A stretch of 40,579 nucleotides of DNA from Haliscomenobacter hydrossis DSM 1100. Lineage in GTDB: Bacteria; Bacteroidota; Bacteroidia; Chitinophagales; Saprospiraceae. The notes beneath the pieces were generated by a model. It made no database searches and had not been told where the DNA came from. It was given only the letters and a program-made list of their open reading frames with translations. Of this stretch, positions 2,395 to 26,258 are shown piece by piece. Each line of letters starts with the position of its first letter. Position 1 is the first letter of the stretch. The translations under genes and the position numbers were made by a program. The DNA is taken from the NCBI GenBank assembly GCA_945878825.1, contig CAMDWC010000003.1:1-40579 (forward strand), in the 5' to 3' direction.

Positions 2395-3879
2395 ATGACA
2401 CTTACAGATATTTTAATTTATACGGCTATTGCAGGTGGTATTTGGACAAGTCTGGTGTATTTCTTATGGCAGAAATCGAAAAATATTTTAATAACCTTTC
2501 TGCAAAGTTTTTGTGGTGCGTTATTTATATTTTCTGGTTGGGTGAAAGCCATAGATCCACTGGGAACGGCTTATAAAATGGAACAATATTTTGCAGAGTT
2601 TAAGGTTACTTTTTCACAAACTTCCCTTAGTTCTTTGGCCGAAATTTTTCCAATTATGGCAGAATATGCCGTTGTTTTTGCTGTAACCATGATTGTTTTT
2701 GAAATTGTGCTGGGTATTATGCTGCTTTTTGGCATTTATCAAAAAATTACAGCATGGTCTTTTTTCTTGCTTATTTTGTTTTTTACCTTTTTAACAGGTT
2801 TTACTTATCTCACTGGCTTTGTTCCCGAAGGTGTCAATTTTTTCTCTTTTTCGCAATGGGGTGACTATGTTGAGACCAATATGAAGGTTACTGATTGCGG
2901 TTGTTTTGGTGATTTTATAAAACTAAAACCCAAAGTTTCTTTTCTGAAAGATATATTTTTACTTGTTCCTGCCATTCTTTTTATGGTCTTCAACAAAAAT
3001 TTATTTACCATTTTCACTCCGGTAACACGAAATAGTATTCTTGCCATTAGTCTGGCAGGTTTCACCTTTTATTCTTTTTCCAATTTTGTATGGGATTTGC
3101 CACACATTGATTTCCGACCTTTTAAAATTGGAAATAATATCAGAGAGATGAAAAAAAAGGAGAAGGAAGCAGCTGCGGCTGTTAAGATTCTTGCTTACAA
3201 AATGACCAATTTAAAATCGGGAGAGATTGTTGAAGTGCCATTCGATACCTATATGCTTGAATATAGTAAATATCCTACCTCTGATTGGAAACTTGAACAG
3301 ATGAAGTCCGAACCAACCGTAGAAAAAACCAAAGTAAGTGATTTCGAAGTAGCTGACATAGATGGAAATGATAAAACGGAGGATATTTTAAATTATCCTG
3401 GCTTTTCATTCATGATTGTTGCATATAAATTAAATGAATCAATTATGAATACTACCAGAATTCAGAGAGATTCTGTGTTTGTGTTGGATAGCGTGTTAAT
3501 TGGTAAAACTTATCAGTACAATAACGTTTTTGATAAAATAGAAGAAGAAACGATACCCGTTAAAACCTATTCGTGGAAAGAAAGTTACGTGGAATCCTGG
3601 AAAAATGATCTTCTTCCTGTCTTAAATCCAATATTGAAAGAAAATATAAACGTTTTCGCAATTACTAAATATACCGATAAACAAATGATAACTGATTTTC
3701 AAAAATCAGCAAAAGTTGATTTTCCTATTTATATGGCTGATGATATTTTGTTGAAAACGATTGTGCGTTCCAATCCTGGGGTAGTTTTATTGAAAGATGG
3801 AAAGGTAATATCAAATTGGCACATAAATCAATTACCTGATGCTAAGGAGCTAATCACTTTGTTTGGTTTAAATAAATAA
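2395..3879 (+). CDS. BT_3928-family DoxX/MauE-like membrane protein with thioredoxin-like tail
   Basis: A 494-residue protein. Residues about 1-235 hold a MauE/DoxX-type membrane domain with five or six hydrophobic segments and the motif DCGCFGDF (about residue 167), a cysteine pair typical of MauE-like quinone or disulfide-handling proteins. Residues about 240-494 form a soluble part predicted to lie outside the inner membrane. Its end looks like a thioredoxin fold (VFAITKYTD, then NPGVVLLKDGKVISNWH with the usual cis-proline position) but has no CxxC. Architecture and order match the Bacteroides BT_3928 family. It follows the DUF1599 gene by 23 bases and precedes nusB by 25, consistent with one operon. 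A role in envelope redox chemistry is inferred from the fold and cysteines only. Confidence 0.8.
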   Translation: MTLTDILIYTAIAGGIWTSLVYFLWQKSKNILITFLQSFCGALFIFSGWVKAIDPLGTAYKMEQYFAEFKVTFSQTSLSSLAEIFPIMAEYAVVFAVTMIVFEIVLGIMLLFGIYQKITAWSFFLLILFFTFLTGFTYLTGFVPEGVNFFSFSQWGDYVETNMKVTDCGCFGDFIKLKPKVSFLKDIFLLVPAILFMVFNKNLFTIFTPVTRNSILAISLAGFTFYSFSNFVWDLPHIDFRPFKIGNNIREMKKKEKEAAAAVKILAYKMTNLKSGEIVEVPFDTYMLEYSKYPTSDWKLEQMKSEPTVEKTKVSDFEVADIDGNDKTEDILNYPGFSFMIVAYKLNESIMNTTRIQRDSVFVLDSVLIGKTYQYNNVFDKIEEETIPVKTYSWKESYVESWKNDLLPVLNPILKENINVFAITKYTDKQMITDFQKSAKVDFPIYMADDILLKTIVRSNPGVVLLKDGKVISNWHINQLPDAKELITLFGLNK

Positions 3880-14930: not shown

Positions 14931-16001
14931 ATGTATTCATTTATAGGCAAGTATAGCTTTATTTTATATTTATCGGTTTTATTTGCGTTGACTTTCTCCT
15001 GTTCAAAGGAAAAAGAAACTATCGATAAATATCAGGTAGTGGAGGGTAAAACGATGGGTACTTATTATAGAGTTACCTATAAGGATTCATTGAAAAGGGA
15101 TTTTTTCAAGGAGATGGATTCTATTTTAATTGCCATTAATGATGATGTTTCAACCTACATTCCGTCCTCGACTATATCTCGTTTTAATCAATCAGAAAAT
15201 ACTGTCTCCGTTCCCGTTTCCGCTACCCACTTTATTGAGAATTTTAAATATGCGCAATTGGTAGCTAATCTATCTACGCAAATGTTTGATCCAACCGTTG
15301 GCCCATTAGTTAATTATTGGGGTTTTGGCTATACTGGTAGAAAACCAGTGACGAAAGTAGATAGCGCTAAAGTTGACTCCCTATTGAAATTTGTTGGTTT
15401 AAAAAATATTGAATGGGTCGAAAAAAATGACTCTATTCTTTTTACGAAGAAATTTTCCGGGGTAGAGCTTGATTTCGGGGGTATTGCTCAGGGATATGCT
15501 ATAGATGTGCTAGCTGCGTTCCTTGATAAAAAAGGGATTGAAAATTATTTAGTAGATTTAGGTGGAGAGTTCTCAGCAAAAAATAAAAATGCAAAGGGAG
15601 CCTTTTGGCAGGTTGGAATTAATATTCCTAAAGAAGATGCAGAGGTAAATGCTATTCAAACTATCTTTTCTTTAGTAAATGAAACCATTTCAACATCAGG
15701 TAATTATCGAAATTTCCACGAGGTGAAAGGGGTAAAATATAGCCACACTTTAAATCCATACACTGGGTTTCCTGAAAAGAATACACTGTTAAGTGTTTCT
15801 GTTTTTGGACCAAAATGTACTATGGCGGATGGACTAGCTACCGCTTGTATGGCCATGGGATTTGATAAAGCACAACTTTTATTGGAATATTTACCAGATT
15901 ATGAAGGATACTTTATATACAGTAAACCAGATGGACAAATAGGTACACATTATACCAGTACCTTAAAGGCTAGAATAGACAAACTAAAAACAGTTAAATG
16001 A
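14931..16001 (+). CDS. apbE: FAD:protein FMN transferase ApbE
   Basis: A 356-residue lipoprotein (ALTFSCSKEK, Cys about 25) of the ApbE family. It attaches FMN from FAD to a Ser/Thr of target proteins, classically NqrB/NqrC and RnfG/RnfD, outside the inner membrane. Visible motifs are VEGKTMGTYYRVTY (about 39-52), FDPTVGPLVNYWGFG, VELDFGGIAQGYAIDVL (about 177-193), LVDLGGEFSAKN, TISTSGNYRNF and SHTLNPYTGFP, with the Mg-binding TMADGLATACMAMG near 300. All are intact. The last 4 bases overlap the exonuclease start (ATGA). Substrate proteins are not in the window. Confidence 0.95.
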   Translation: MYSFIGKYSFILYLSVLFALTFSCSKEKETIDKYQVVEGKTMGTYYRVTYKDSLKRDFFKEMDSILIAINDDVSTYIPSSTISRFNQSENTVSVPVSATHFIENFKYAQLVANLSTQMFDPTVGPLVNYWGFGYTGRKPVTKVDSAKVDSLLKFVGLKNIEWVEKNDSILFTKKFSGVELDFGGIAQGYAIDVLAAFLDKKGIENYLVDLGGEFSAKNKNAKGAFWQVGINIPKEDAEVNAIQTIFSLVNETISTSGNYRNFHEVKGVKYSHTLNPYTGFPEKNTLLSVSVFGPKCTMADGLATACMAMGFDKAQLLLEYLPDYEGYFIYSKPDGQIGTHYTSTLKARIDKLKTVK

Positions 16002-16828
16002 CGGTTACACTAGATAAGGATTTATGTTTTTTTGATATCGAAAGTACAGGACTAAATGTATTAAGAGACAGAATTTTACAGCTCGCCATTATAAAATATC
16101 CAAAAAACAATAAGCCCGTCGAGGAATTATCTTTATTAATAAATCCTGGTGTACCTATTTCAGAAGAGGCATTTCAAGTGCATGGAATCTCGGCTAAAGA
16201 ACTGTCAAACAAACCTGTTTTTTCTCAGGTTGCTGATAAAATCAATAAGTTTATTGGGGAGGCTGACTTAGCTGGTTATAATTCCAATAGATTTGATATT
16301 CCAATGTTAATCGAGGAGTTTGCCAGAGTAGGTATCGATTTTGATATGTCAAAAAGAAGAACTATTGATGTTCAGCGGATTTTTTACAAAATGGAACCAA
16401 GAACCTTAAAGGCAGCGTTACGTTTTTATTGTCAAAAGGATCTCGTTGATGCTCACGATGCTTTATCTGATGTCCGCGCCACTGTCTCTGTATTTGAGGG
16501 TCAATTGGCTAAGTATGTCGGTAAGGAGGTGGAAAATGAAGACGGTGTGGTCGGCCAATCTCCCATAACGGCGGATATTCAACAGTTACATGATTTTACG
16601 AACGACTTACGCTTTGTTGACGCTACACAAAAGCTTAGGGTAGAAAAAGATGGTACTGTTGTTTTTAACTTTGGAAAATTTGAAGGTAAACCAGCAGGTG
16701 AAGTATTATATAACGATAGAAATTATTATAATTGGATTATCACTAAAGAGTTTTCATCTCAGGTAAAACAGGCTGTAAAAAGTTTATTAAAAGATTATGC
16801 TAATAAAATGGACAAGGATAATCGCTAA
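15998..16828 (+). CDS. DEDDh 3'-5' exonuclease (DnaQ-like)
   Basis: A 276-residue protein. Its first 170 residues form an RNase-T/DnaQ exonuclease domain. Exo I is FFDIESTGL (Asp13, Glu15), Exo II is YNSNRFDIPMLIEEF (Asp about 103) and Exo III is DAHDALSDVRAT (His about 152, Asp about 157), giving a complete DEDDh set for two metals. The C-terminal 50 residues (VFNFGKFEGKPAGEVL, YYNWIITKEF) resemble the small tail domain of ExoX-like exonucleases. It should degrade DNA or RNA from the 3' end in repair or proofreading. It is not fused to a polymerase. Start overlaps apbE by 4 bases, and its end overlaps the first MbnP-like gene by 32 bases. Confidence 0.9.
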   Translation: MTVTLDKDLCFFDIESTGLNVLRDRILQLAIIKYPKNNKPVEELSLLINPGVPISEEAFQVHGISAKELSNKPVFSQVADKINKFIGEADLAGYNSNRFDIPMLIEEFARVGIDFDMSKRRTIDVQRIFYKMEPRTLKAALRFYCQKDLVDAHDALSDVRATVSVFEGQLAKYVGKEVENEDGVVGQSPITADIQQLHDFTNDLRFVDATQKLRVEKDGTVVFNFGKFEGKPAGEVLYNDRNYYNWIITKEFSSQVKQAVKSLLKDYANKMDKDNR

Positions 16829-17696
16829 AGGTCAGTGGAATATCTATCTTTTCTTCTTTGTTTGCTTACTTTATCTTTCCGCTTGTAACGAAGATCAAAA
16901 AGAGGGTTGTTTAGATTATAGGTATGCTAATTTTTCTGTAAATGCGGATATAAATTGCCTTGATTGTTGTAAGTTTCCGGAGCTAAGGGTAATATTGAGA
17001 CATCGTATTTCTCAAGGAGATTCCCTTTATCCGGTAATCTATAGAAATCAATCTTATGCTTTTGCCTCGGGTGATTCCTTTATAATTGAAAATTTTTCTT
17101 TTATACTTTCTGATTTCCATTTAATTGATTTAAAAGATAATGTAATTCCCGTTTTTGATTCTTTGTTCATAAGAACATTGAATACCCAAAGAGATTCCGT
17201 TTTTTATTCCTTTTCAAACAGTTTTCTAATAGGAAATCCAAATATTTTTCAAAAGAAAAAAGTCGCTGCGGTTTTTCATAATGGATTAGGTGCTAAAGCC
17301 CTGCGATTTACCCTGGGGGTCGAACCACCAGTTGATGTGCTCACTCCTCTTGAATTTCCTCCAAATCATCCTCTCGTCGTTAATCAAAGCTATTTGTACC
17401 AGAAAGAAAAAGGATATATATTTGCTAATATGCAGTTGAAACGAAAGGAATTTCCTTTAGAATCAATGCCAAACATCAGTTTAAGTGGTAGTGATTTCTT
17501 GAAAACAATTGATATTCCCTTTTTTACCAAAGTAAAAGCCGGGTATCACCAGGAAATTACGCTTGAAGTTGATTATGCCGTATGGCTCAAAGGAATAGAT
17601 TTTTCAAAAGATCCCCCTGCAATTATTCAAAAAAAATGGATGGTCAATCTGGTAAAATCTTTTAAAATAGTTACTGTTTTAGAGGTCATTGATTAA
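16797..17696 (+). CDS. MbnP-like lipoprotein, divergent copy
   Basis: A 299-residue predicted lipoprotein (LLYLSACNEDQ, Cys30). A Cys-rich segment follows (GCLDYRYANFSVNAD, then CLDCC; Cys38, 54, 57, 58) and resembles short adhesin-like repeats in Bacteroidota exported proteins. From about residue 60 it has the MbnP plan: FIIENFSFILSDFHLIDLKD, then a region ending LEFPPNHPLV. Where MbnP proteins carry Tyr-Trp-Ser-Trp before a GY-[IV]-F strand, this one has SYLYQKEKGYIFANMQLK: the strand is present but both tryptophans are missing. The tryptophan oxidised by MbnH in characterised MbnP is therefore probably absent. The ATG is inside the exonuclease gene (32-base overlap), suggesting coupled translation. 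Membership is well supported; copper binding is doubtful. Confidence 0.72.
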   Translation: MLIKWTRIIAKGQWNIYLFFFVCLLYLSACNEDQKEGCLDYRYANFSVNADINCLDCCKFPELRVILRHRISQGDSLYPVIYRNQSYAFASGDSFIIENFSFILSDFHLIDLKDNVIPVFDSLFIRTLNTQRDSVFYSFSNSFLIGNPNIFQKKKVAAVFHNGLGAKALRFTLGVEPPVDVLTPLEFPPNHPLVVNQSYLYQKEKGYIFANMQLKRKEFPLESMPNISLSGSDFLKTIDIPFFTKVKAGYHQEITLEVDYAVWLKGIDFSKDPPAIIQKKWMVNLVKSFKIVTVLEVID

Positions 17697-17713
17697 GCAA
17701 TAAATTTTTTACT

Positions 17714-18469
17714 ATGAATAAATTGCTTTTTATTTTGTTAACGTTTATTCTATTTACCTGTAATAAGGAAACATCTACAATTCCCAAGGTAAACGTTAAC
17801 CTAAGGGTAATCGGAACTTTCAATGGTTTGCCATTACAGATGTACAACCAAAATTACGAATACGCAGATGGAGTTAAAATTAAATTCCAGTCGTTCAATT
17901 TTTATCTTTCAGACCTTTACTTGATAAAAGGTTCGGGTTCAGGAACGGAAAAGGTCTTGCTATCTGAAGTTGTGTTAATAAATTTTAAGGACATTCAATC
18001 ATTGTCTGCAGCCGAAAAAGGGGTAGAGTTGGTTTTTAAAAATATTCCTATTGGAAATTATACTGGTTTTCAAGCAGGTATTGGTGTTGCTCCACGGTTA
18101 AATGCAACTGGCCCAGCTTCTTATCCACCGCCGCATCCTTTAGATGAGAACTACTGGTCATGGGCTGCGGGCTATGTATTTACAAAAATTGAAGGAAATG
18201 CAGATGTGGATAATTCTGAGAAATTCGCTACCAAGTTAACCTTTCATTCAGGTGGAGATGCCTATTACAAACCTGTTACATGGACTAAGCCTATTTCTAT
18301 AAGTAAGGAGTCTTCAGATATTGTTCTAACCTTGGATGTTAAAGATATCATTTGGAAAGACCAAATTAATTATATTGATTTTAGAAAAATTACGACGGAT
18401 CATAGCGTAAATAAAGATATTGTATCTTTCATAATGACCAATTTACAGCAAGGATTAAAATATCCATAG
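17714..18469 (+). CDS. mbnP: MbnP-family copper-binding lipoprotein, canonical copy
   Basis: A 251-residue lipoprotein (FILFTCNKET, Cys16) of the MbnP family. Motifs are VKIKFQSFNFYLSDLYLIKG (about 55-74), IPIGNYTGFQAGIGV (about 116-130), PPPHPLDENYWSWAAGYVF (about 138-156) and LTFHSGGDAYYKPV. Trp148 and Trp150 sit in the conserved Tyr-Trp-Ser-Trp segment. In Methylosinus MbnP a tryptophan is oxidised to kynurenine by the di-heme enzyme MbnH, creating a tight copper site. The presence of two mbnH-like genes directly downstream (2-base gap to the first) fits the same chemistry here. Which residue is modified cannot be settled from sequence. Likely anchored in the outer or inner membrane by its lipid. 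Confidence 0.85.
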   Translation: MNKLLFILLTFILFTCNKETSTIPKVNVNLRVIGTFNGLPLQMYNQNYEYADGVKIKFQSFNFYLSDLYLIKGSGSGTEKVLLSEVVLINFKDIQSLSAAEKGVELVFKNIPIGNYTGFQAGIGVAPRLNATGPASYPPPHPLDENYWSWAAGYVFTKIEGNADVDNSEKFATKLTFHSGGDAYYKPVTWTKPISISKESSDIVLTLDVKDIIWKDQINYIDFRKITTDHSVNKDIVSFIMTNLQQGLKYP

Positions 18470-18471
18470 CG

Positions 18472-19461
18472 ATGTTAAAATGGCTTCTTCTCATTGCACT
18501 GGTAATTTTTAGTTCCTGTAAAAGGAATTTTTTCGCGGTTAACGATTTTCCTCCAATGGTATGGCCAAAGGATAATCTATTTAATGAGGAAAAAGTGGCC
18601 ATTGGAGGAAAGTTGTTTGTCGACCCTATCCTGTCCATAAATAGTAAGATAAGTTGCGGCACCTGCCATGTACCTTCTCTAGCTTTTACCGATGGAAAGA
18701 AGGTTTCCGAAGGGCTATTTCCTTTAACGAGAAGTGCTCCATCTTTATTTAATATAGGTTTTCACTTTAAAGGTTTATTCTGGGTTGGAAGTGCTTCAAC
18801 GTTGGAAAAGCAGGCGCTTATAACGGTAAGTAGCCCGCTGGAAATGGGGCTTCCCTGGATTATAGCTGAAAAAAGAATCAACGAATCAGATGTTTATGCT
18901 AAAGCATTTAAAAAAATATACGGTGATATTTTTATTGATTCCTTAAAAATTGCTTCGGTTTTGGCGCAGTATCAAAGAACCTTACTATCAAATAATTCAA
19001 AATTTGATGCCGTAATGAGGGGAGAAATGAACTTCACACCCAAAGAAAAACGTGGTTGGACTATATTTTTTGACGCTGATCCTATGTTGCCGAGTGCGGA
19101 ATGTAGTCACTGTCATGTTGATCCGTTATTTACCGATTTATCCTTTCAAAATAATGGGATTCATACCGAAAGTGAGTTAAACGGAAGTTCATCAGAAAAG
19201 GGCAGAGAGTCAGTAACCCTGAATCCTAATGACCGTTTTAAATTCAAAGTTCCCACCCTAAGAAATATTGCCATTACAGCTCCTTACATGCATGACGGTA
19301 GATTAAAATCATTAGAGGAGGTTATGAATCACTATAATATGGGTGGAAACCCAGGATTTAATGTAAATCCTAACGTAAGAAGTCTTAATCTGTCGAAGCA
19401 AGATATTTCCGATCTGATAGCTTTTTTACACACTTTAACCGATGTAAAAACAGAGGAATAG
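18472..19461 (+). CDS. MbnH/cytochrome-c-peroxidase-like di-heme lipoprotein, divergent copy
   Basis: A 329-residue lipoprotein (ALVIFSSCKRN, Cys16) of the di-heme CcpA/MauG/MbnH superfamily. It has two heme c sites, SCGTCH (Cys62, Cys65, His66) and CSHCH (Cys211, Cys214, His215), plus the family segment FKVPTLRNIAITAPYMHDGR near residue 260. The segment FWDGR that follows the first heme in most relatives is FWVGS here (103-107), losing the Asp and Arg. Peroxidases of this family reduce peroxide, while MauG/MbnH members use it to oxidise a partner protein. The position right behind mbnP (2 bases) argues for a protein-modifying or MbnP-linked role, but the changed motif makes its activity uncertain. 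Confidence 0.83.
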   Translation: MLKWLLLIALVIFSSCKRNFFAVNDFPPMVWPKDNLFNEEKVAIGGKLFVDPILSINSKISCGTCHVPSLAFTDGKKVSEGLFPLTRSAPSLFNIGFHFKGLFWVGSASTLEKQALITVSSPLEMGLPWIIAEKRINESDVYAKAFKKIYGDIFIDSLKIASVLAQYQRTLLSNNSKFDAVMRGEMNFTPKEKRGWTIFFDADPMLPSAECSHCHVDPLFTDLSFQNNGIHTESELNGSSSEKGRESVTLNPNDRFKFKVPTLRNIAITAPYMHDGRLKSLEEVMNHYNMGGNPGFNVNPNVRSLNLSKQDISDLIAFLHTLTDVKTEE

Positions 19462-19482
19462 ACTTCGAATGGAGAAACTTTT

Positions 19483-19521
19483 AATCCACTTATTCGTTTA
19501 AACATTTAAATATAAGTGATT
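19483..19521 (+). repeat. Hairpin abutting the second mbnH start codon
   Basis: The arm AATCCACTTAT (19483-19493) pairs with ATAAGTGATT (19512-19521), forming ten base pairs with one bulged C. The right arm ends one base before the ATG at 19522. In the mRNA this could sequester the start region or separate expression of the last gene from the three before it. Confidence 0.5.
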
Positions 19522-20637
19522 ATGCATAGAATATTGATTTTTTGCTTCTTCCTTACGTTGGCGTTTTGTTTAGTTTCTTGTAAAAAAGACCCTGAAATAT
19601 GTGTTGATTGTTTAGATGACATTGCTTTTAAACAAGCAGTTCAAGATACTACACCTTATATTTTAAATGTTCCTTCCTGGTTGCCTAAACCCATTATTCC
19701 TTCTGATAATAAGTTGACAATTAAGGGTGTTGCACTAGGAAGAAGATTGTTTTATGATCCTATGCTATCAAAAGATAGTACTCAATCTTGTGCCAGTTGT
19801 CATTCTTTAGATAAATCATTTACCGACGGCCTGCCCTTAAGTAAGGGTGAAAAAGGGTTGGTCGGTGTTCGAAACAGTATGGCATTGGTCAATCTTGCAT
19901 ACAACACCAGAGGTTTCTTTTGGGACGGAAGAGTCAATTCATTGGAAACTCAGGTTTTGCACCCCATTGAAGATCCTTTGGAGATGAATAACACGATTCA
20001 AGAGGTTGAATTGAGGTTGAGGAGAAATAAAATGTATCCCGCTTTATTTAAAGAGGTCTTTGGTATCAATTCAAAAAATGAGATTACCATTGATTTGTTA
20101 GTTAAAGCCATCGCGCAATTTGAAAGAACGTTGATAAGTGGTAATTCGAGATACGATCAAATAATATGGGGACAAAAAGGTTTTCCGGAGGAAAATGAAG
20201 CCAGAGGGATTGAATTGTTTTTTATAGAATTTGCAGGTAAGACTAATCATCCAGGTTGCAGTCATTGCCATTTTAATCCGCTTTTTACAGATAATCAATT
20301 TCGAAACAATGGCTTAGATTATGTGATCTCTCTTCTCGACTTCAAAGATCCGGGAAGAAGAAATGTTACACAAAATATTAACGATAGTGGTAGATTTAGA
20401 GTTCCAACCCTGAGAAATATTACTTACACAGCGCCTTATATGCATGACGGAAGATTCAAAACATTGGAAGAAGTCTTACAACATTATGAAAAAGGGGGGC
20501 ATGGTGTCATTAATGAAGATCCTAATATTCTTCCTTTTAAGCTTTCTGATAGAGATAAAAAGGATTTAATTGCCTTTTTAAACATGTTATCAGATACTTC
20601 TTTCATAAATAATAAATATTTTTCAAAACCTTTTTAA
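19522..20637 (+). CDS. mbnH: MbnH-family di-heme lipoprotein, canonical copy
   Basis: A 371-residue lipoprotein (LAFCLVSCKKD, Cys about 20) with two heme c motifs: SCASCH (Cys90, Cys93, His94) and GCSHCH (Cys246, Cys249, His250). It keeps the superfamily segments NSMALVNLAYNTRGFFWDGR (FWDGR at 133-137), PIEDPLEMN, FRVPTLRNITYTAPYMHDGR and HYEKGGHG. In MbnH/MauG-type enzymes the two hemes reach a high-valent bis-Fe(IV) state with peroxide and oxidise a tryptophan on a partner protein. A classical peroxidase function remains possible. I use the ATG at 19522; a GTG at 19516 would lie inside the preceding hairpin. It is the last gene before a 665-base non-coding stretch. Confidence 0.87.
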   Translation: MHRILIFCFFLTLAFCLVSCKKDPEICVDCLDDIAFKQAVQDTTPYILNVPSWLPKPIIPSDNKLTIKGVALGRRLFYDPMLSKDSTQSCASCHSLDKSFTDGLPLSKGEKGLVGVRNSMALVNLAYNTRGFFWDGRVNSLETQVLHPIEDPLEMNNTIQEVELRLRRNKMYPALFKEVFGINSKNEITIDLLVKAIAQFERTLISGNSRYDQIIWGQKGFPEENEARGIELFFIEFAGKTNHPGCSHCHFNPLFTDNQFRNNGLDYVISLLDFKDPGRRNVTQNINDSGRFRVPTLRNITYTAPYMHDGRFKTLEEVLQHYEKGGHGVINEDPNILPFKLSDRDKKDLIAFLNMLSDTSFINNKYFSKPF

Positions 20638-20771
20638 TTATTTTTTTATTGCAATTCACAAAAAATTATTTAATATATTATAAACCAGTATTTTAGATTA
20701 AATTAAAAAAAAATATCTTTCACATCGTAAATAAATTGTACTTTTTTACCATTAAATATAGCTCCATATTT

Positions 20772-20941
20772 GTATTGTCGAAAGGAAGATAGTTTTTTTC
20801 AATTGATGTATGATAAAAAAAGCTGCATAGGTAGTAAAGATATACGAGGCATTCTTTTTAAGAACCTCAAGATTTATGTTCATGGGATTATACTTTGGTC
20901 AATAAGTCGTGCTGTAGTTTATAGCGCGACTTATTTTTTTT
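20772..20941 (+). ncRNA. Candidate small RNA with terminator
   Basis: A transcript of about 170 bases is suggested by a CATATTTG box (20765-20772; 7 of 8 to TAnnTTTG). It is followed by an internal hairpin at 20846-20868 (GAGG and TTCTT pairing with AAGAA and CCTC, two bases bulged, TTT loop) and a strong intrinsic terminator at 20901-20941. The 5' end is a guess. No known RNA family is recognised. An alternative is that the terminator simply ends the mbnP/mbnH transcript about 300 bases downstream of the last stop codon. Confidence 0.4.
20901..20941 (+). terminator. Strong intrinsic terminator
   Basis: AATAAGTCGTGCT (20901-20913) pairs with AGCGCGACTTATT (20923-20935) over 13 bp with one G-U pair and a nine-base loop. 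It is followed directly by a run of T to 20941. There is no T-run on the other side, so it acts only in the plus direction. Confidence 0.8.
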
Positions 20942-20988
20942 GTAGAAATTTAACTAAATCAATACTATAAATCTATTTCTTAGATATG

Positions 20989-21001
20989 ATCACCTCCTGA
21001 T
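20989..21001. other. Mini-hairpin with anti-Shine-Dalgarno-like loop
   Basis: ATCA (20989-20992) pairs with TGAT (20998-21001) around the loop CCTCC. The surrounding GATCACCTCCT (20988-20998) equals the 3' tail of bacterial 16S rRNA. On the opposite strand the loop is GGAGG. The stem is short, so this may be chance. Confidence 0.25.
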
Positions 21002-21032
21002 GGTACTACCCAGCTTTTCTTTGATATGCAGT

Positions 21033-21119
21033 GTAAAACGGTTAGGATAAATATTTTATTAAAATACTAAAAGTAACCGGGTTATTTTTTTGTAATCAAT
21101 CCCTTAATTAACGTTTTAC
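21033..21119 (+). other. Nested inverted repeats with T-run upstream of the adhesin gene
   Basis: CGGTTA (21039-21044) pairs with TAACCG (21074-21079) around an inner hairpin TATTTT/AAAATA (21052-21057, 21061-21066), then a run of seven T (21085-21091). A further arm pair, GTAAAACG (21033-21040) and CGTTTTAC (21112-21119), encloses or competes with it by sharing CG at 21039-21040. It could be a second terminator or a leader structure. Confidence 0.4.
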
Positions 21120-21237
21120 GTATAATAAAAAAATATAAATTATTCATATTCAAATATATATAGTTATTTTAGGATTAAATAAATGTGTTCTATAAGCATT
21201 AAAAACTTGACTAATAGCTCAAAATATTCTTTTTTTA

Positions 21238-21245
21238 CAAAGTTA
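21238..21245 (-). promoter_or_regulatory. Orphan minus-strand -7 element
   Basis: On the minus strand this reads TAACTTTG, an exact TAnnTTTG match pointing away from the adhesin gene into the non-coding interval. No minus-strand gene follows. It would drive an RNA running towards 20940. The -33 element is not clear and chance is possible in such AT-rich DNA. Confidence 0.3.
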
Positions 21246-21302
21246 ATAATACCCCCAATGTTCAAATTAGTATTTTTTATTGATTTGTAATTCTTTACAT
21301 AT

Positions 21303-24300
21303 ATGATTCGTTCAGGAAAAATCAACGTTGTACTTATCCTTCTCTTACTTCCATTTTGGTTAATTAGCCAGTCGGTAAGTGTTCAATTTTCAGGTTCGCA
21401 ACCAACCTGCTTTAATTTACCTACGGGTAAAATTACAGCCATACCTGTTGGCGGCACATTACCTTATTCCTACAGGTGGAGCACAGGGGCTGTGGGCGCA
21501 GAATTAAATAATGTTCTTGCCGGTTCTTACGCTGTTACTGTTACCGATGCATTAAATAGAACAGGAACGGGCACTTATATTTTAACTCAACCTCCTAAAT
21601 TAAGTGTAAAAATGGAAAGGATTGTTTGTGGCAATCCTACGACAGTAAAAGCTATCGTCACAGGAGGGGTAGGTCCATATACTTATGCATGGGATACAGG
21701 TTCAACTTTTGATACGACCATTATCAACACAGAAAATAAATATTGTGTTTCAGTAACAGACAGTAGATTATGTGGGAATATAACTTGTGAACCCATTATT
21801 ATAACGCCAATGGTGATTGCTGTAGATACGAGGAATATTTCATGTAACAGTTTTCAAGATGGCCAACTTACGGCAACGGCAGGGGGAGGAACTCAACCAT
21901 ATACCTATAAGTGGAGTAACGGTCTAACCACCAGAGATATCAGAAATTTAGCTGGTGGCGCTTATACCGTGACTATTACAGAAAAAGGAGGTTGTTCGAT
22001 ATCTGCCAGAGCGACGGTTGCAGAACCTGCCAGATTAATTATTCCATTAACTATAACTCAACCAGACTGTTCTGGGGAAGCCAGCGGTAGAATTGTTGCT
22101 CAACCCGTTGGCGGCAATGCACCTTACCGTTATTCATGGAGTACAGGTAGTTCCTCGTCTTCATTAAACTTTTTATCGTCTGGTACTTATTCACTTACTG
22201 TTGTTGATGCTAAAGGGTGTAATGCGTCTTCAGTAACCAATTTGCAAAGTCAATCTGCCATTAATCTTTTTACTACAAGTAAAGCAGAGACTTGTCTTGG
22301 CATGGGTGATGGCGAATTGAGAGTAAGTGCCATTGGTGGTGTTGGTCCTTACCGCTATAGTTGGAACTCGGGTGAATCTGATAGTTTAATTAAACTTAAA
22401 GTTACAGGTAATTATATAGTGACAGTAACGGATGCAATAGGATGTGTAAAATCGGTTAATGTTTTAATGACTGCCTCGGCACCCTCACTTATAATTGATG
22501 TGTCAAACAGCGGATTAGCATGTAATGCTTCTACCAACGGTCGTTTACAACTAAATATTCGAGGCGGACAGGCTCCATTTAGCATTCAATGGAACACAGG
22601 TGCCACAACCTCTGAAATTATAAATTTGAAAGCAGGTAATTATTTAGCTACGGTAACTGATGCTATCGGTTGCAAACAGGTTATTCGGGAGTCTATAATG
22701 GAATCTCCACCTATTCTTTTAGATATAAGTGGTGATGATCGGGTTTGTGGCAATGAAACCAAAGCGCGCCTGAGAACAACCGTTACGGGAGGGGTAATTC
22801 CTTATACCTATAAATGGTCTAATGGTAGAACGGGACCAAATCCTGATAATATGGGTGCGGGCATGCATTATTTGACACTTACAGATGCTAATAAATGTTC
22901 CGTTGTGGATAGCTTTTTTATTGCAAAACTCTCTGTTCCACTTATCTCTCTGGTAGGAAACAAAATTGTTTGTAATAACGGTAGGGGAGCTTTAACTGCC
23001 CAGGTGACTGGTTCGCCCGGACCTTACCTTTATGCGTGGAGCAATGGACAAACGGGTTCCGCTGTGGGAAATTTAGGAACAGGTTTTTATGCTCTTACAG
23101 TGGAAGATGCAAATGCTTGCACCACTATTGAGTATTTTCAAATAGAGGTCGTAGATTCTTTAAGACCAAATCTAAGCGTTCAATCTCCCCGATGTAAGGG
23201 TGAATTGAATGGAAGTATTTTAGTAAATAACATGTCCGGTGGTGTCGCACCTTACTCTTACCTTTGGAATAACGGAAGTACCTTAAATTCAAGAATTAAT
23301 CTAGCTTCAGGTAATTATTCTTTAACTATTTCAGATAAAAATGGCTGCCAGTTTATAAGGAATTTTCCCTTGCTCGAATCTGATTTGCCTCTTGAAGTCA
23401 ATCCACAGATAACGGATGTTCTTTGTGGTGTTCAGGGTACAGGGGCTGTAAACCTTCAAGTTAAAGGTGGAATCCTTCCTTATCAACAACGATGGTCTGA
23501 TGGCTCTTTAACAAGCAATAGATCGAATCTGAGAAGTGGTCTATATATTGTTACCGTTACCGATGCTTATGGATGTCCTGTAACAAAAAATATTAGTATA
23601 AATGATCCCGGGAATCCTGTTTGTAATCTGGCCGTTACCAAAACTGTGAGTTATCCCAGTTTAAATAATGGAGAGGCTCAGGTGGCACCTAGTGGAGGTG
23701 TTTTTCCTTATACTGTTCAATGGAGTAACGGGCAAGTGGGGTATAAAGCCGTTAATCTTGAAAATAAAAATTATCAAATTACTTTAACTGATGCCAAAGG
23801 GTGTGTGACTAATTGTACAGTAAATCCTGAAATATCTAATTCCCTGGTTGGCGATTATGTTTGGTTTGATAGTAATCTTGATGGACTTCAAACTCCCGGC
23901 GAGCAAGGAGTTCCAAATGTTGAAGTTGTTATTACCAGACTCGATACCTTGGTTGAAAGATTTGCAGTAACAAGAACCGACGCATCGGGTAGATATTTTT
24001 TCCCTGTACCACCAGGTCAGTTTAAGATTACCTTTCAAGTGCCTTCTGGAATGGTTCTAACGAAACCAAATGAGTTTTCTTTGAATGATTCTCTGGATAG
24101 TGACGTAGATAGGAAATCAAGAATGACAGAACCTTTTACCGTATTAAAAGGTACAGCAAATTTTACCTTTGATGCCGGATTAATTCCGTCCCCTCAAGCG
24201 CAGACTACTAATACTATCTGTTTAAATAACGCAACCCAAAATGGGAATGGTCAATTTCAATCAACCCTGGAAATTAGAAATGAGGTAGGAGGTCAGGTTT

Positions 24301-26258
24301 GGAGAATATTAAATCCCGTGGGTGTCTTTGATCAATTTAGCCTACCTACGCCCAATCTACCTCGTTTAATCGCCCTTAATACAGTGGTTCCCGAAGTGCA
24401 GCCTGGCGTGTATCAATATAAATTCAGACACATCGATGGAAAAAATTATTCAGCTTTAGTGACAAACGGAGTTGATACTCTGCTTTTTCAAGGGGGTACT
24501 TCTTATCCTGAAATACCCATTACAAATCTTCCTCTTTCCCAATTAAGTCTGTGTGAAAATGGGGGTTCTTTTAAATTTAATCTGGATACCTCCGCTATCG
24601 GTAATCTGAATATTACCTTAAACGGTAAATTAATCACTGAGATTAATCCAGCAGAACTCGGAAATGGTTCATATAGTCTTGAAATAAATTATAATACTGG
24701 TTTACTTCAAGAGTGTATCACCATTTTAGATTTAAACGTAGTAATACAAAAAGATAGCTGTTTGGCAAAATTAGGCGATCGTGTTTGGCACGATTTAAAT
24801 CAAAATGGTATTCAAAATCTTGGGGAACCAGGCTTAGTGGGTGTTCAAGTCATCCTCTCGCTTATAGAGGGTAATAAAATTCGCGAAATGGATACTACTT
24901 ATACTGATAGTACAGGTATGTATATGTTTAATGTTCCCGCAGGTAAGTACAAGTTAACTTTCGCAAAACCTAATCCAGATTATGCCCCAACATCCTGGTT
25001 AAGAGGATTGGATAAAAATGTAGATAGTGATATGAGTCCGCTTACTATGATGACGGAGTTTATTACAGTGGATACTGGAGTAAATAGAATGGATATTGAC
25101 GCGGGATTCTATCTTGAATGTAAAAATATTACCTCGGGCGGTGAAATTGGGTATAATCAACTCATCTGCGGACCAGGAAATGATCCGGTGAAAATAGTAA
25201 ATCTGATTAGTCCCTCCGGAGTTATTGGAGCTCTTGAATATCTGTGGATGTACACCACAGATAGAGCACTTACCTTTGATATGAATTTATTTAGCCCCAT
25301 CCCAAATTCTGATACTCCTGAATTTGATCCGGGGCCATTATATCAAACAACCTACTATGCTCGTTGCGTTAGAAAGAGAGGTTGTTATGGGTTTTTGGAA
25401 TCTAATGTGGTTAAAGTGGAAGTTGGAAACAGAGCTACCGTAAAGGTGGTCAGTTCTCCAACTATGTGTATTAATGCTAATAACTTTTTAGAAGTTCAAA
25501 CCAGTACGTCAGCGGCACAAATTACCTGGGAATTAGGTCCGGGTTTTCAATCTTCTCTGGCTTATGGCTCAAAACCCAATGTTCGTTTTTCAAGCGTTGG
25601 TACTTTTTCCTATAAAGTTATTGTGGTAGAACGCGAGTGCACTGTTTCTTTTAATGGTTCTGTTACCGTAACGAATAATTCTACTTATTGTCCCTCTGTA
25701 AATGATCAGGAAACGATGTCTATTGAGGCACAAGTTATGCCGGGTTTTGATGTGAAATTGTCCTGGCGCAGCAAAACGTCGGCTTTTATTCCTATCTACA
25801 CTATCGAAAGATCAATGGATGGTATAAATTACCAGCGCCTTTCTGACAAGAAATTACCTGTCATGGAGGTTCAAAGTATGAAATATTTTGAATTTTTCGA
25901 CAAACCTGATAAAATGGGTTTACATTATTATAGGGTTAAAATGAAAAAGGAAGACGGAACGATGTTACCTTCTAATGTAGAGAAAGTAATGTTAATGGAT
26001 AAGCCAGACATGAAAATGATGGTTTTTCCAAATCCTTTTACAGATATTTTACATGTAGAATATTATTTTGTTTCACAGGATAATATTGAAATATCTATTT
26101 TTGATGCCAATGGGCTAAAGGTGAGGGACTGGTTTTTTCCTCCCGGACCTGCTGCCTCCAGAGCATTAAATATTAAAGACTTATCACCGGGCGTTTATGC
26201 TATTCGTATTATTTCTGGTTATGGAAATCCTATTACCGAGCGGATAATTAAACATTAA
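21303..26258 (+). CDS. Giant SprB-repeat adhesin with SdrD-B-like domains and T9SS tail
   Basis: A 1651-residue secreted surface protein. A signal peptide (VVLILLLLPFWLISQS) precedes eleven SprB repeats of about 75 residues (about 25-845), each with a GG-x-x-PY-x-Y-x-WS/N-x-G core and a Y-x-[VL]-T-[VI]-T-D-x-x-GC end. Next come an SdrD-B-like domain (about 848-965; VGDYVWFDSNLDGLQTPGE), an unclassified stretch, a second SdrD-B-like domain (about 1155-1265; LGDRVWHDLNQNGIQ), an FN3-like segment with YTIERSMDGINYQRL, and a type A T9SS sorting domain from about 1572 (VFPNPFTDILHVEYYF to ERIIKH). SprB repeats occur in the gliding adhesin of Flavobacterium johnsoniae. Function here (adhesion, gliding or matrix) is inferred. 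No SprF/PorP-type partner is adjacent. The ATG at 21303 opens the signal peptide. Confidence 0.92.
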   Translation: MIRSGKINVVLILLLLPFWLISQSVSVQFSGSQPTCFNLPTGKITAIPVGGTLPYSYRWSTGAVGAELNNVLAGSYAVTVTDALNRTGTGTYILTQPPKLSVKMERIVCGNPTTVKAIVTGGVGPYTYAWDTGSTFDTTIINTENKYCVSVTDSRLCGNITCEPIIITPMVIAVDTRNISCNSFQDGQLTATAGGGTQPYTYKWSNGLTTRDIRNLAGGAYTVTITEKGGCSISARATVAEPARLIIPLTITQPDCSGEASGRIVAQPVGGNAPYRYSWSTGSSSSSLNFLSSGTYSLTVVDAKGCNASSVTNLQSQSAINLFTTSKAETCLGMGDGELRVSAIGGVGPYRYSWNSGESDSLIKLKVTGNYIVTVTDAIGCVKSVNVLMTASAPSLIIDVSNSGLACNASTNGRLQLNIRGGQAPFSIQWNTGATTSEIINLKAGNYLATVTDAIGCKQVIRESIMESPPILLDISGDDRVCGNETKARLRTTVTGGVIPYTYKWSNGRTGPNPDNMGAGMHYLTLTDANKCSVVDSFFIAKLSVPLISLVGNKIVCNNGRGALTAQVTGSPGPYLYAWSNGQTGSAVGNLGTGFYALTVEDANACTTIEYFQIEVVDSLRPNLSVQSPRCKGELNGSILVNNMSGGVAPYSYLWNNGSTLNSRINLASGNYSLTISDKNGCQFIRNFPLLESDLPLEVNPQITDVLCGVQGTGAVNLQVKGGILPYQQRWSDGSLTSNRSNLRSGLYIVTVTDAYGCPVTKNISINDPGNPVCNLAVTKTVSYPSLNNGEAQVAPSGGVFPYTVQWSNGQVGYKAVNLENKNYQITLTDAKGCVTNCTVNPEISNSLVGDYVWFDSNLDGLQTPGEQGVPNVEVVITRLDTLVERFAVTRTDASGRYFFPVPPGQFKITFQVPSGMVLTKPNEFSLNDSLDSDVDRKSRMTEPFTVLKGTANFTFDAGLIPSPQAQTTNTICLNNATQNGNGQFQSTLEIRNEVGGQVWRILNPVGVFDQFSLPTPNLPRLIALNTVVPEVQPGVYQYKFRHIDGKNYSALVTNGVDTLLFQGGTSYPEIPITNLPLSQLSLCENGGSFKFNLDTSAIGNLNITLNGKLITEINPAELGNGSYSLEINYNTGLLQECITILDLNVVIQKDSCLAKLGDRVWHDLNQNGIQNLGEPGLVGVQVILSLIEGNKIREMDTTYTDSTGMYMFNVPAGKYKLTFAKPNPDYAPTSWLRGLDKNVDSDMSPLTMMTEFITVDTGVNRMDIDAGFYLECKNITSGGEIGYNQLICGPGNDPVKIVNLISPSGVIGALEYLWMYTTDRALTFDMNLFSPIPNSDTPEFDPGPLYQTTYYARCVRKRGCYGFLESNVVKVEVGNRATVKVVSSPTMCINANNFLEVQTSTSAAQITWELGPGFQSSLAYGSKPNVRFSSVGTFSYKVIVVERECTVSFNGSVTVTNNSTYCPSVNDQETMSIEAQVMPGFDVKLSWRSKTSAFIPIYTIERSMDGINYQRLSDKKLPVMEVQSMKYFEFFDKPDKMGLHYYRVKMKKEDGTMLPSNVEKVMLMDKPDMKMMVFPNPFTDILHVEYYFVSQDNIEISIFDANGLKVRDWFFPPGPAASRALNIKDLSPGVYAIRIISGYGNPITERIIKH

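Follow-up and report, generated by a model that had tools for sequence, protein, structure and literature searches.

A conserved MbnP/MbnH variant with a divided MbnP and a doubled di-heme enzyme in Haliscomenobacter hydrossis and its relatives

Why should two MbnP-like genes and two MbnH-like genes stand side by side in one bacterium? The question is raised by a locus of Haliscomenobacter hydrossis DSM 1100 (Bacteroidota, Saprospiraceae; assembly GCA_945878825.1), found in positions 1 to 40,579 of contig CAMDWC010000003.1, the 40,579-nucleotide stretch that was analysed as a whole and is hereafter called the window. MbnH converts a Trp of MbnP, giving a copper site; the first Trp of a WxW motif becomes kynurenine, and Cu(I) is reportedly bound by a His, a Met and a solvent ligand, the Met being, we infer, the one two residues before this Trp. 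Both proteins are conserved far beyond methanobactin producers, according to the accessible part of PMC3621798. The locus proves to be a real and conserved variant of the MbnP/MbnH system, in which MbnP is divided over two proteins and the enzyme is doubled, with kynurenine and copper as predicted features.

Four genes lie in tandem on the + strand at 16797-20637: P1 (16797-17696, 299 aa) and P2 (17714-18469, 251 aa), which encode lipoproteins of the MbnP fold, followed by H1 (18472-19461, 329 aa) and H2 (19522-20637, 371 aa from its ATG, or 373 from an in-frame GTG at 19516), which encode di-heme lipoproteins of the MbnH/MauG type. The gaps between them are 17, 2 and 60 bases, the last being 60 from the ATG of H2 and 54 from the GTG. 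An earlier interpretation made from the letters of the DNA (the sequence-only reading) had described these four open reading frames (ORFs), their strand and spacing, and had noted that the first overlaps an exonuclease gene; all this was borne out, the exonuclease ORF (15998-16828) and P1 sharing 32 bases. Its statement that methanobactin genes are absent agrees with a search of the 88.62% complete genome, which gave no match to the MbnB family (PF05114). P1 and P2 are the sole PF20243 matches of the genome in a Pfam profile search, a third protein with the CCP_MauG domain lies on another contig, and so do both SCO-family matches. Families, folds, retained and lost residues, gene order and acidic residues, as given below, were taken from sequences, structural models and trees.

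That P1 and P2 belong with MbnP is indicated by both profile and fold. Against the Pfam MbnP model, with a gathering cut-off of 27, P1 scores 44.5 and P2 94.1 bits, and 51 of 52 P1 proteins match it at E 0.1. Among NCBIfam models, P2 fits TIGR04052 (MbnP), with 47.5 bits under a curated cut-off of 140, and P1 matches no NCBIfam model at all. The AlphaFold models of the two proteins (pLDDT 86.1 for P1 and 90.6 for P2) both plainly match MbnP 7l6g, P1 with Z 15.3 and rmsd 3.6 over 209 residues aligned within positions 59-299 (next row Z 5.6), and P2 with Z 15.8 and rmsd 3.2 over 205 residues (next row Z 4.7). The same entry is the sole one in the PDB that Foldseek finds for either protein at E <=0.001 (8.8e-7 for P1, 4.4e-8 for P2). 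PDB sequence searches with P2 alone, with a P1 profile and with a P2 profile gave no match, MbnP having come from the fold comparison; CorA and MopE are not among the fold matches listed, which excludes nothing.

The two proteins differ in what they keep of the MbnP site. Six proteins annotated as MbnP on plasmids (from Trichormus, Pseudoalteromonas, Deinococcus, two Methylocystis and Paracoccus) show the motif xxWxW; among them, Met stands two before the first Trp in 5/6, and the His of an HLG/HVG motif is present in 6/6. Trp148 of P2 (codon 18155..18157), the first Trp of a WSW motif, aligns with the first W of WxW, and His178 (codon 18245..18247), a possible metal ligand, aligns with the HLG/HVG His; P2 is the likely substrate and Trp148 the predicted kynurenine precursor. 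Residue columns were counted in 71 distinct P2 and 73 distinct P1 proteins. Trp148 and His178 are each found in 70 of the P2 proteins, His230 in 67, His141 in 57 and Met43 in 50. In P1, the column of Trp148 holds Trp in 12 of 73 and that of His178 holds His in one, and His230 (a gap in all 73) and Met43 are missing altogether; put the other way, 61/73 lack the canonical Trp and 72/73 the MbnP His, and P1 of the window lacks the first Trp of WxW, as well as the His. The His of an HPL motif is nonetheless kept in 66/73 P1. The column two before the Trp carries Met in 34/73 and Leu in 31/73 P1, so that by alignment P2 kept the loop Trp and His, while about half of the P1 proteins kept the loop Met.

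In addition, P1 has a module of its own after the lipid Cys, GCxDxxAxN...C..CC..P (residues 37-61, 16905..16979), which lies N-terminal of the part matched to 7l6g. Because the filter used to call P1 loci demands two spaced Cys, its cysteines were counted in the unfiltered set of 73: C38 and C58 are present in 72 each, C54 and C57 in 66 each, and in almost every P2 the corresponding columns are gapped or hold different residues. No shared Pfam domain was found there at E up to 0.1. Two further P1 residues, Tyr260 (68/73) and Trp263 (55/73), could be targets other than the canonical Trp.

Both H1 and H2 match Pfam CCP_MauG, and their best NCBIfam model is TIGR04039 (MbnH), with 198.5 bits for H1 and 262.8 for H2, under the curated cut-off of 362.85; against TIGR03791 (MauG) they score 183.1 and 185.8, under a cut-off of 443.85. 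The best PDB sequence match of each is 6e1c, titled di-heme enzyme, which we take to be MbnH of Methylosinus trichosporium. The comparison of enzymes covered 109 proteins, of which 45 were labelled H1, 44 H2 and 20 came from clusters with one enzyme (single H); where a contig end truncates the cluster, some H1 labels were assigned by profile, and numbering follows the 373-residue form. Both CxxCH motifs, Trp136, Glu156 and Tyr324 are present in 109/109, and Gln146 in 106/109. The Tyr324 column is Tyr in 6e1c and, in peroxidase 3o5c, the Met that serves as heme ligand; the second axial ligand of MauG is Tyr. In the accessible part of PMC10094543, a bacterial peroxidase is described with Trp98, Gln108 and Glu118, the spacing of which equals that of the Trp, Gln and Glu in the H proteins, and with a distal-His loop; no His is among the commonest residues of the corresponding H columns 110-119. 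At column 120, His occurs in 1/45 H1 and 3/20 single H.

Because the catalytic residues tested are kept, the ligand position is Tyr324 and the loop columns examined have no conserved His, both H1 and H2 are predicted to act as MauG/MbnH-type enzymes. The two are distinguishable from each other: a His within the second heme motif HPGCSHCH of H2 is invariant in H2 (44/44), is found in 3/20 single H and is not among the commonest residues in H1. In the window, the Asp of the WDG motif of H1 is Val, a change unique among 45 H1, which might have marked H1 as a dead copy; that idea was ruled out, since the catalytic residues tested are kept and 6e1c lacks WDG too. The suggestion of one active and one regulatory pair is unsupported as far as the enzymes go, given that both retain these residues.

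The trees were quick searches with SH-aLRT supports only, containing a single MauG, and a long-branched Hymenobacter peroxidase was left out of the second H tree. Annotated MbnH and the H proteins share a branch that excludes MauG and the peroxidases included (SH-aLRT 95; 83-84 in the other tree); on it, H1/H2 form one of several lineages and need not be the sister of MbnH. The sequence-only reading was right to see two MbnP-like and two MbnH-like proteins, as supported by profile, fold and tree, with the di-heme proteins placed beside annotated MbnH and not with ordinary peroxidases and both P proteins in the MbnP family. The profile check that it proposed came out divided: P1 and P2 exceed the Pfam MbnP cut-off and H1 and H2 match TIGR04039 best, yet the NCBIfam cut-offs are unmet and P1 has no NCBIfam match. 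In the same trees, the di-heme proteins of plasmid records L171, L174, L176 and L182 group with MbnH and are annotated as 'methanobactin export MATE transporter MbnM', an apparent naming error in public records.

How widely the arrangement is shared was assessed in 121 loci, namely that of the window and those of 120 genomes taken from the 176 others that gave a match (199 searched), the first 60 chosen by strongest match and genus spread and the next 60 following. The end of a contig or stretch truncates 16 loci, and one has no P1 under the filter. The order P1-P2-H-H, for which a survey in Bacteroidota genomes had been proposed, was found in 39 loci, all uncut, and this recurrence means that the arrangement is not due to chance and that the order is inherited. 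The remaining loci are P1-P2-H (44, of which 35 uncut), P1 alone (15, 12 uncut), P1-P2 (12, 10 uncut), P1-H (7, 5 uncut), P1-P2-P2-H (3, all uncut) and the one without P1. Since 12 uncut loci have P1 but neither P2 nor H next to it, P1 may have a separate role of its own. A set of 36 named loci, found with P2 and partly on the same contigs, hence no independent sample, contains 25 of the form P1-P2-H1-H2. In this set, P1-P2 stands without an adjacent di-heme gene in L138, L144 and L150. Two genomes (G031 and G134) of one genus with P1-P2 but no adjacent H carry several CCP_MauG genes elsewhere. The P2 proteins of six relatives, metagenome-assembled genomes assigned to Saprospiraceae, Haliscomenobacteraceae or Bacteroidota, are 84-86% identical to that of the window, and MbnP-domain genes occur in 98 of 100 sampled genomes of the window's Bacteroidota family. 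Two Saprospiraceae loci (L159, 6971-9486; L160, 5888-8557) have two different MbnP genes and then one di-heme gene, with canonical MHWNW in one MbnP of L159.

Four-gene and three-gene clusters also differ in some residues. Met43 of P2 is present in 41/44 four-gene and 3/18 three-gene clusters, and Trp at 151 in 4/44 and 18/18; in a wider set that includes some cut loci, the figures are 35/40 and 11/45 for Met43, and 8/40 and 42/45 for Trp at 151. P1 Trp263, with kinship ignored, is found in 40/43 and 8/19. The idea that the residues of P2 follow the number of H genes was dropped, since only 3 independent pairs lie on supported branches.

For the origin of the cluster, 198 genomes of the order were searched with a P1 profile, and 178 gave some match at E 0.001; among the matches listed, all those beyond E 1e-30 belong to the family of the window bar one at 2e-30, and weaker ones spanning the N-terminal part are in families f5, f9, f12, f13, f14 and f15. 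Eleven such loci outside the family were examined. Three of them, uncut and from two other families (L185, L190 and L192), have a single MbnP with the module, MxWxW and the His, and then two di-heme genes; L191 is of the same type except that its second di-heme gene is truncated, and L189 breaks off partway through a di-heme gene. In L188, a P1-like protein with the module, MHW and His is accompanied by a P2-like protein with HWDW and by two di-heme genes. The remaining five (L183, L184, L186, L187 and L193) differ in having a module-bearing or related MbnP without WxW, L183 with a second MbnP that has WTW. Because L185, L190 and L192 have an undivided MbnP followed by two di-heme genes, the division of MbnP and the doubling of the enzyme are, on this comparison of loci, separate events.

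In the MbnP trees, P1 forms one clade (SH-aLRT 99), P2 groups with the P2-like protein of L188 (91), and the side of P1 (88) also holds the module-bearing MbnPs and further MbnPs of Bacteroidota. The di-heme tree separates the first genes of the outside clusters from their second genes and places H1, H2 and single H of the family in one 45-row clade (99). On this placing, two adjacent enzymes seem to have arisen at least twice, with tree supports that are modest and long rows that are unsure.

The sequence-only reading also had all four proteins lipid-anchored, and each has indeed a lipid-anchor signal, a Cys after an N-terminal hydrophobic stretch. In surface lipoproteins of Capnocytophaga, Bacteroides and Flavobacterium, acidic residues follow a Lys or polar residue near the lipid Cys, a motif not seen in periplasm-facing ones, as far as the accessible part of PMC5080379 describes it. 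In the window, CKKDPE of H2 (after its signal peptide), CNKETS of P2 and CNEDQK of P1 resemble this signal, described for those three genera only, and CKRNFF of H1, with no acidic residues just after the Cys, does not. When Asp and Glu were counted at +1 to +6 of the lipid Cys, with kinship ignored, two or more were found in 73/87 P2, 41/52 single H, 29/36 H2, 77/108 P1 and 5/29 H1. Among the 26 loci with both enzymes, H2 is more acidic than H1 in 19, equal in 6 and less acidic in 1 (sign test 4e-5, kinship again ignored). No lipobox was recognised in 12/120 P1, 14/101 P2, 3/39 H2 and 2/54 single H. Because acidic residues follow the lipid Cys in H2 and mostly not in H1, these signals suggest that the two enzymes sit on different faces of the outer membrane.

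From these data we infer the oxidation of a Trp, a metal, a partner role for P1 and the location of the proteins, in a system that would work as follows. H2, H1 or both would react with peroxide, by prediction without the reductive activation that peroxidases need, and would oxidise Trp148 of P2, probably to kynurenine. The oxidised Trp148 would complete a metal site, most likely for copper, together with His178 and other ligands of P2. P1, an MbnP paralogue that lost Trp and His and kept the cysteine module, would most likely serve P2 and the enzymes as a scaffold or as a partner that is not itself a substrate. Export to the cell surface would apply to P2, H2 and probably P1, and H1 would face the periplasm. 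To this variant MbnP/MbnH maturation system, as read from sequences and models, a probability of roughly 55% is given.

Several observations weigh against it. The NCBIfam cut-offs for MbnP and MbnH are not reached. The Met two before the Trp is Asn146 in P2 of the window and is found in 0/71 P2 in one alignment and 2/98 in another, replaced by Asn in 41/71 and His in 18/71; the P2 metal site must therefore differ from that of annotated MbnP. WxW proper is found in 22/71 P2 (15/98 in the other alignment). Parts of the system persist without enzymes, in the 10 uncut P1-P2 loci without adjacent H and the 12 with P1 alone, and no lipobox was recognised in 10/39 H1. Moreover, no copper gene was recognised beside the cluster, in a scan where 1/71 upstream ORFs had a CusB/HlyD-type domain and the downstream side was covered by the first 25 of 52 families. 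In favour of the system, on the other hand, MbnP genes with a di-heme neighbour elsewhere adjoin CopC/CopD on a Deinococcus plasmid and PCu(A)C and SCO on a Paracoccus plasmid.

The explanation that survives best beside it, unlikely as it is, takes the di-heme proteins to be surface or periplasmic peroxidases or peroxide sensors, with the MbnP-fold proteins as redox or docking partners and no kynurenine formed. It would account for the CCP_MauG domain, the wider family of which includes peroxidases, and for P2 without adjacent H in some loci; the Tyr in all 109 proteins at the column of the heme-ligand Met, the lack of a conserved His in the loop columns examined and the near-invariance of Trp148 all speak against it. 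It is also conceivable, at distinctly long odds, that Trp148 is oxidised and that the product serves another metal or none, for instance as a cross-link or radical relay, with copper not involved. The replacement of the Met, the presence in P2 of its own conserved His230 and often Met43, and the lack of a recognised copper gene among the neighbours scanned would all fit; against this, His178 and Trp148 are kept, and the kynurenine copper site of MopE and CorA uses two His and no Met, by the accessible part of PMC3912023, so that a Met is not required for such a site.

An extension of the maturation system, to which only a small chance is given, would have it span the outer membrane, with a periplasmic H1, a surface H2 and a divided MbnP, P2 carrying a Trp-derived site and P1 a CxxCC metal or redox site; copper might then be handed between the Cys and the kynurenine site, or the Trp might be oxidised in two steps on two sides. 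Two parallel pairs, one H modifying P1 and the other P2, as proposed in the sequence-only reading, would suit the 39 loci with equal numbers of P and H, Tyr260 and Trp263 of P1 and the 12 P1 proteins that have the canonical Trp, yet are very improbable given the loss of Trp and His in most P1, the similar frequency of one-enzyme clusters (35 uncut against 39) and the doubled H that follows one undivided MbnP in three uncut loci outside the family, where doubling was apparently separate; on these same grounds the strict matching of P1 with H1 and P2 with H2 was ruled out.

Among known systems, the closest is the MbnP-MbnH pair of methanotrophs and others (TIGR04052/TIGR04039), with which the cluster shares the MbnP fold, the first Trp of WxW, the HLG His and a neighbouring MauG-like di-heme enzyme whose E-heme ligand position is Tyr. 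It differs in that MbnP is divided over two lipoproteins, P1 has a cysteine module and P2 has the Met before the Trp replaced, and furthermore in having two enzymes and lipid-anchor signals, and in that no gene of the MbnB family was found. The CorA-CorB and MopE-SACCP systems of methanotrophs also comprise a surface copper protein with a Trp-derived kynurenine, its gene co-transcribed with that of a di-heme cytochrome (accessible parts of PMC3912023 and PMC3621798), with one protein and one enzyme each, and with kynurenine and copper that are only predicted in the present case. MauG with methylamine dehydrogenase is alike in that a di-heme enzyme modifies a Trp of its partner, as is predicted here, and differs in that H1 and H2 lie apart from the one MauG in the tree and on the branch of annotated MbnH. 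The classical bacterial cytochrome c peroxidase shares the CCP_MauG domain, two c-hemes and the inter-heme Trp, Gln and Glu, whereas H1 and H2 have Tyr for the heme-ligand Met and no conserved His in the loop columns examined. No tandem MbnP or MbnH cluster of Bacteroidota is named in the titles and abstract openings of the papers listed by a literature search outside subscription journals, which is no proof of novelty.

The neighbours of the cluster are partly conserved as well. Upstream on the + strand lie an ApbE-family flavin transferase gene (14931..16001; Pfam ApbE 251.6 bits), a conserved neighbour outside the system itself, and the ExoX-like 3'-5' exonuclease gene (15998..16828; RNase_T and ExoX-like_C), the 3' end of which overlaps the start of P1. 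The exonuclease is directly upstream of P1 in 93/121 loci and overlaps it in 75/121, and the overlap is seen also in several loci missing P2 and H; among 71 upstream ORFs scanned in relatives, RNase_T was found in 30 and ApbE in 26. Downstream of H2 comes a stretch of about 665 bases (20638-21302) that lacks a long ORF, and then a large gene with SprB repeats and a type IX secretion tail (21303-26258). In several relatives, the next gene is preceded by 0.6-1.1 kb in which no ORF reaches 90 aa, and SprB was matched in 14/43 downstream ORFs scanned. At the Rfam gathering cut-off, the sole match in the window is a tRNA, with none in four relatives and none in 20638-21302. A MauE domain (PF07291, 49.1 bits) occurs in a 494-residue protein encoded at 2395-3879, about 15 kb from the MauG-like genes in the same window.

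If the maturation system proposed here is true, the making of metal sites of the kynurenine type would be extended to a whole Bacteroidota family. The splitting of MbnP also offers variants made by nature: P1 lacks the Trp, P2 the Met and H1 the export-type signal, and each of them opens one step of the MbnH reaction to a direct test. Equally open to test would be the question of why lineages that apparently acquired them separately have two di-heme enzymes next to MbnP.

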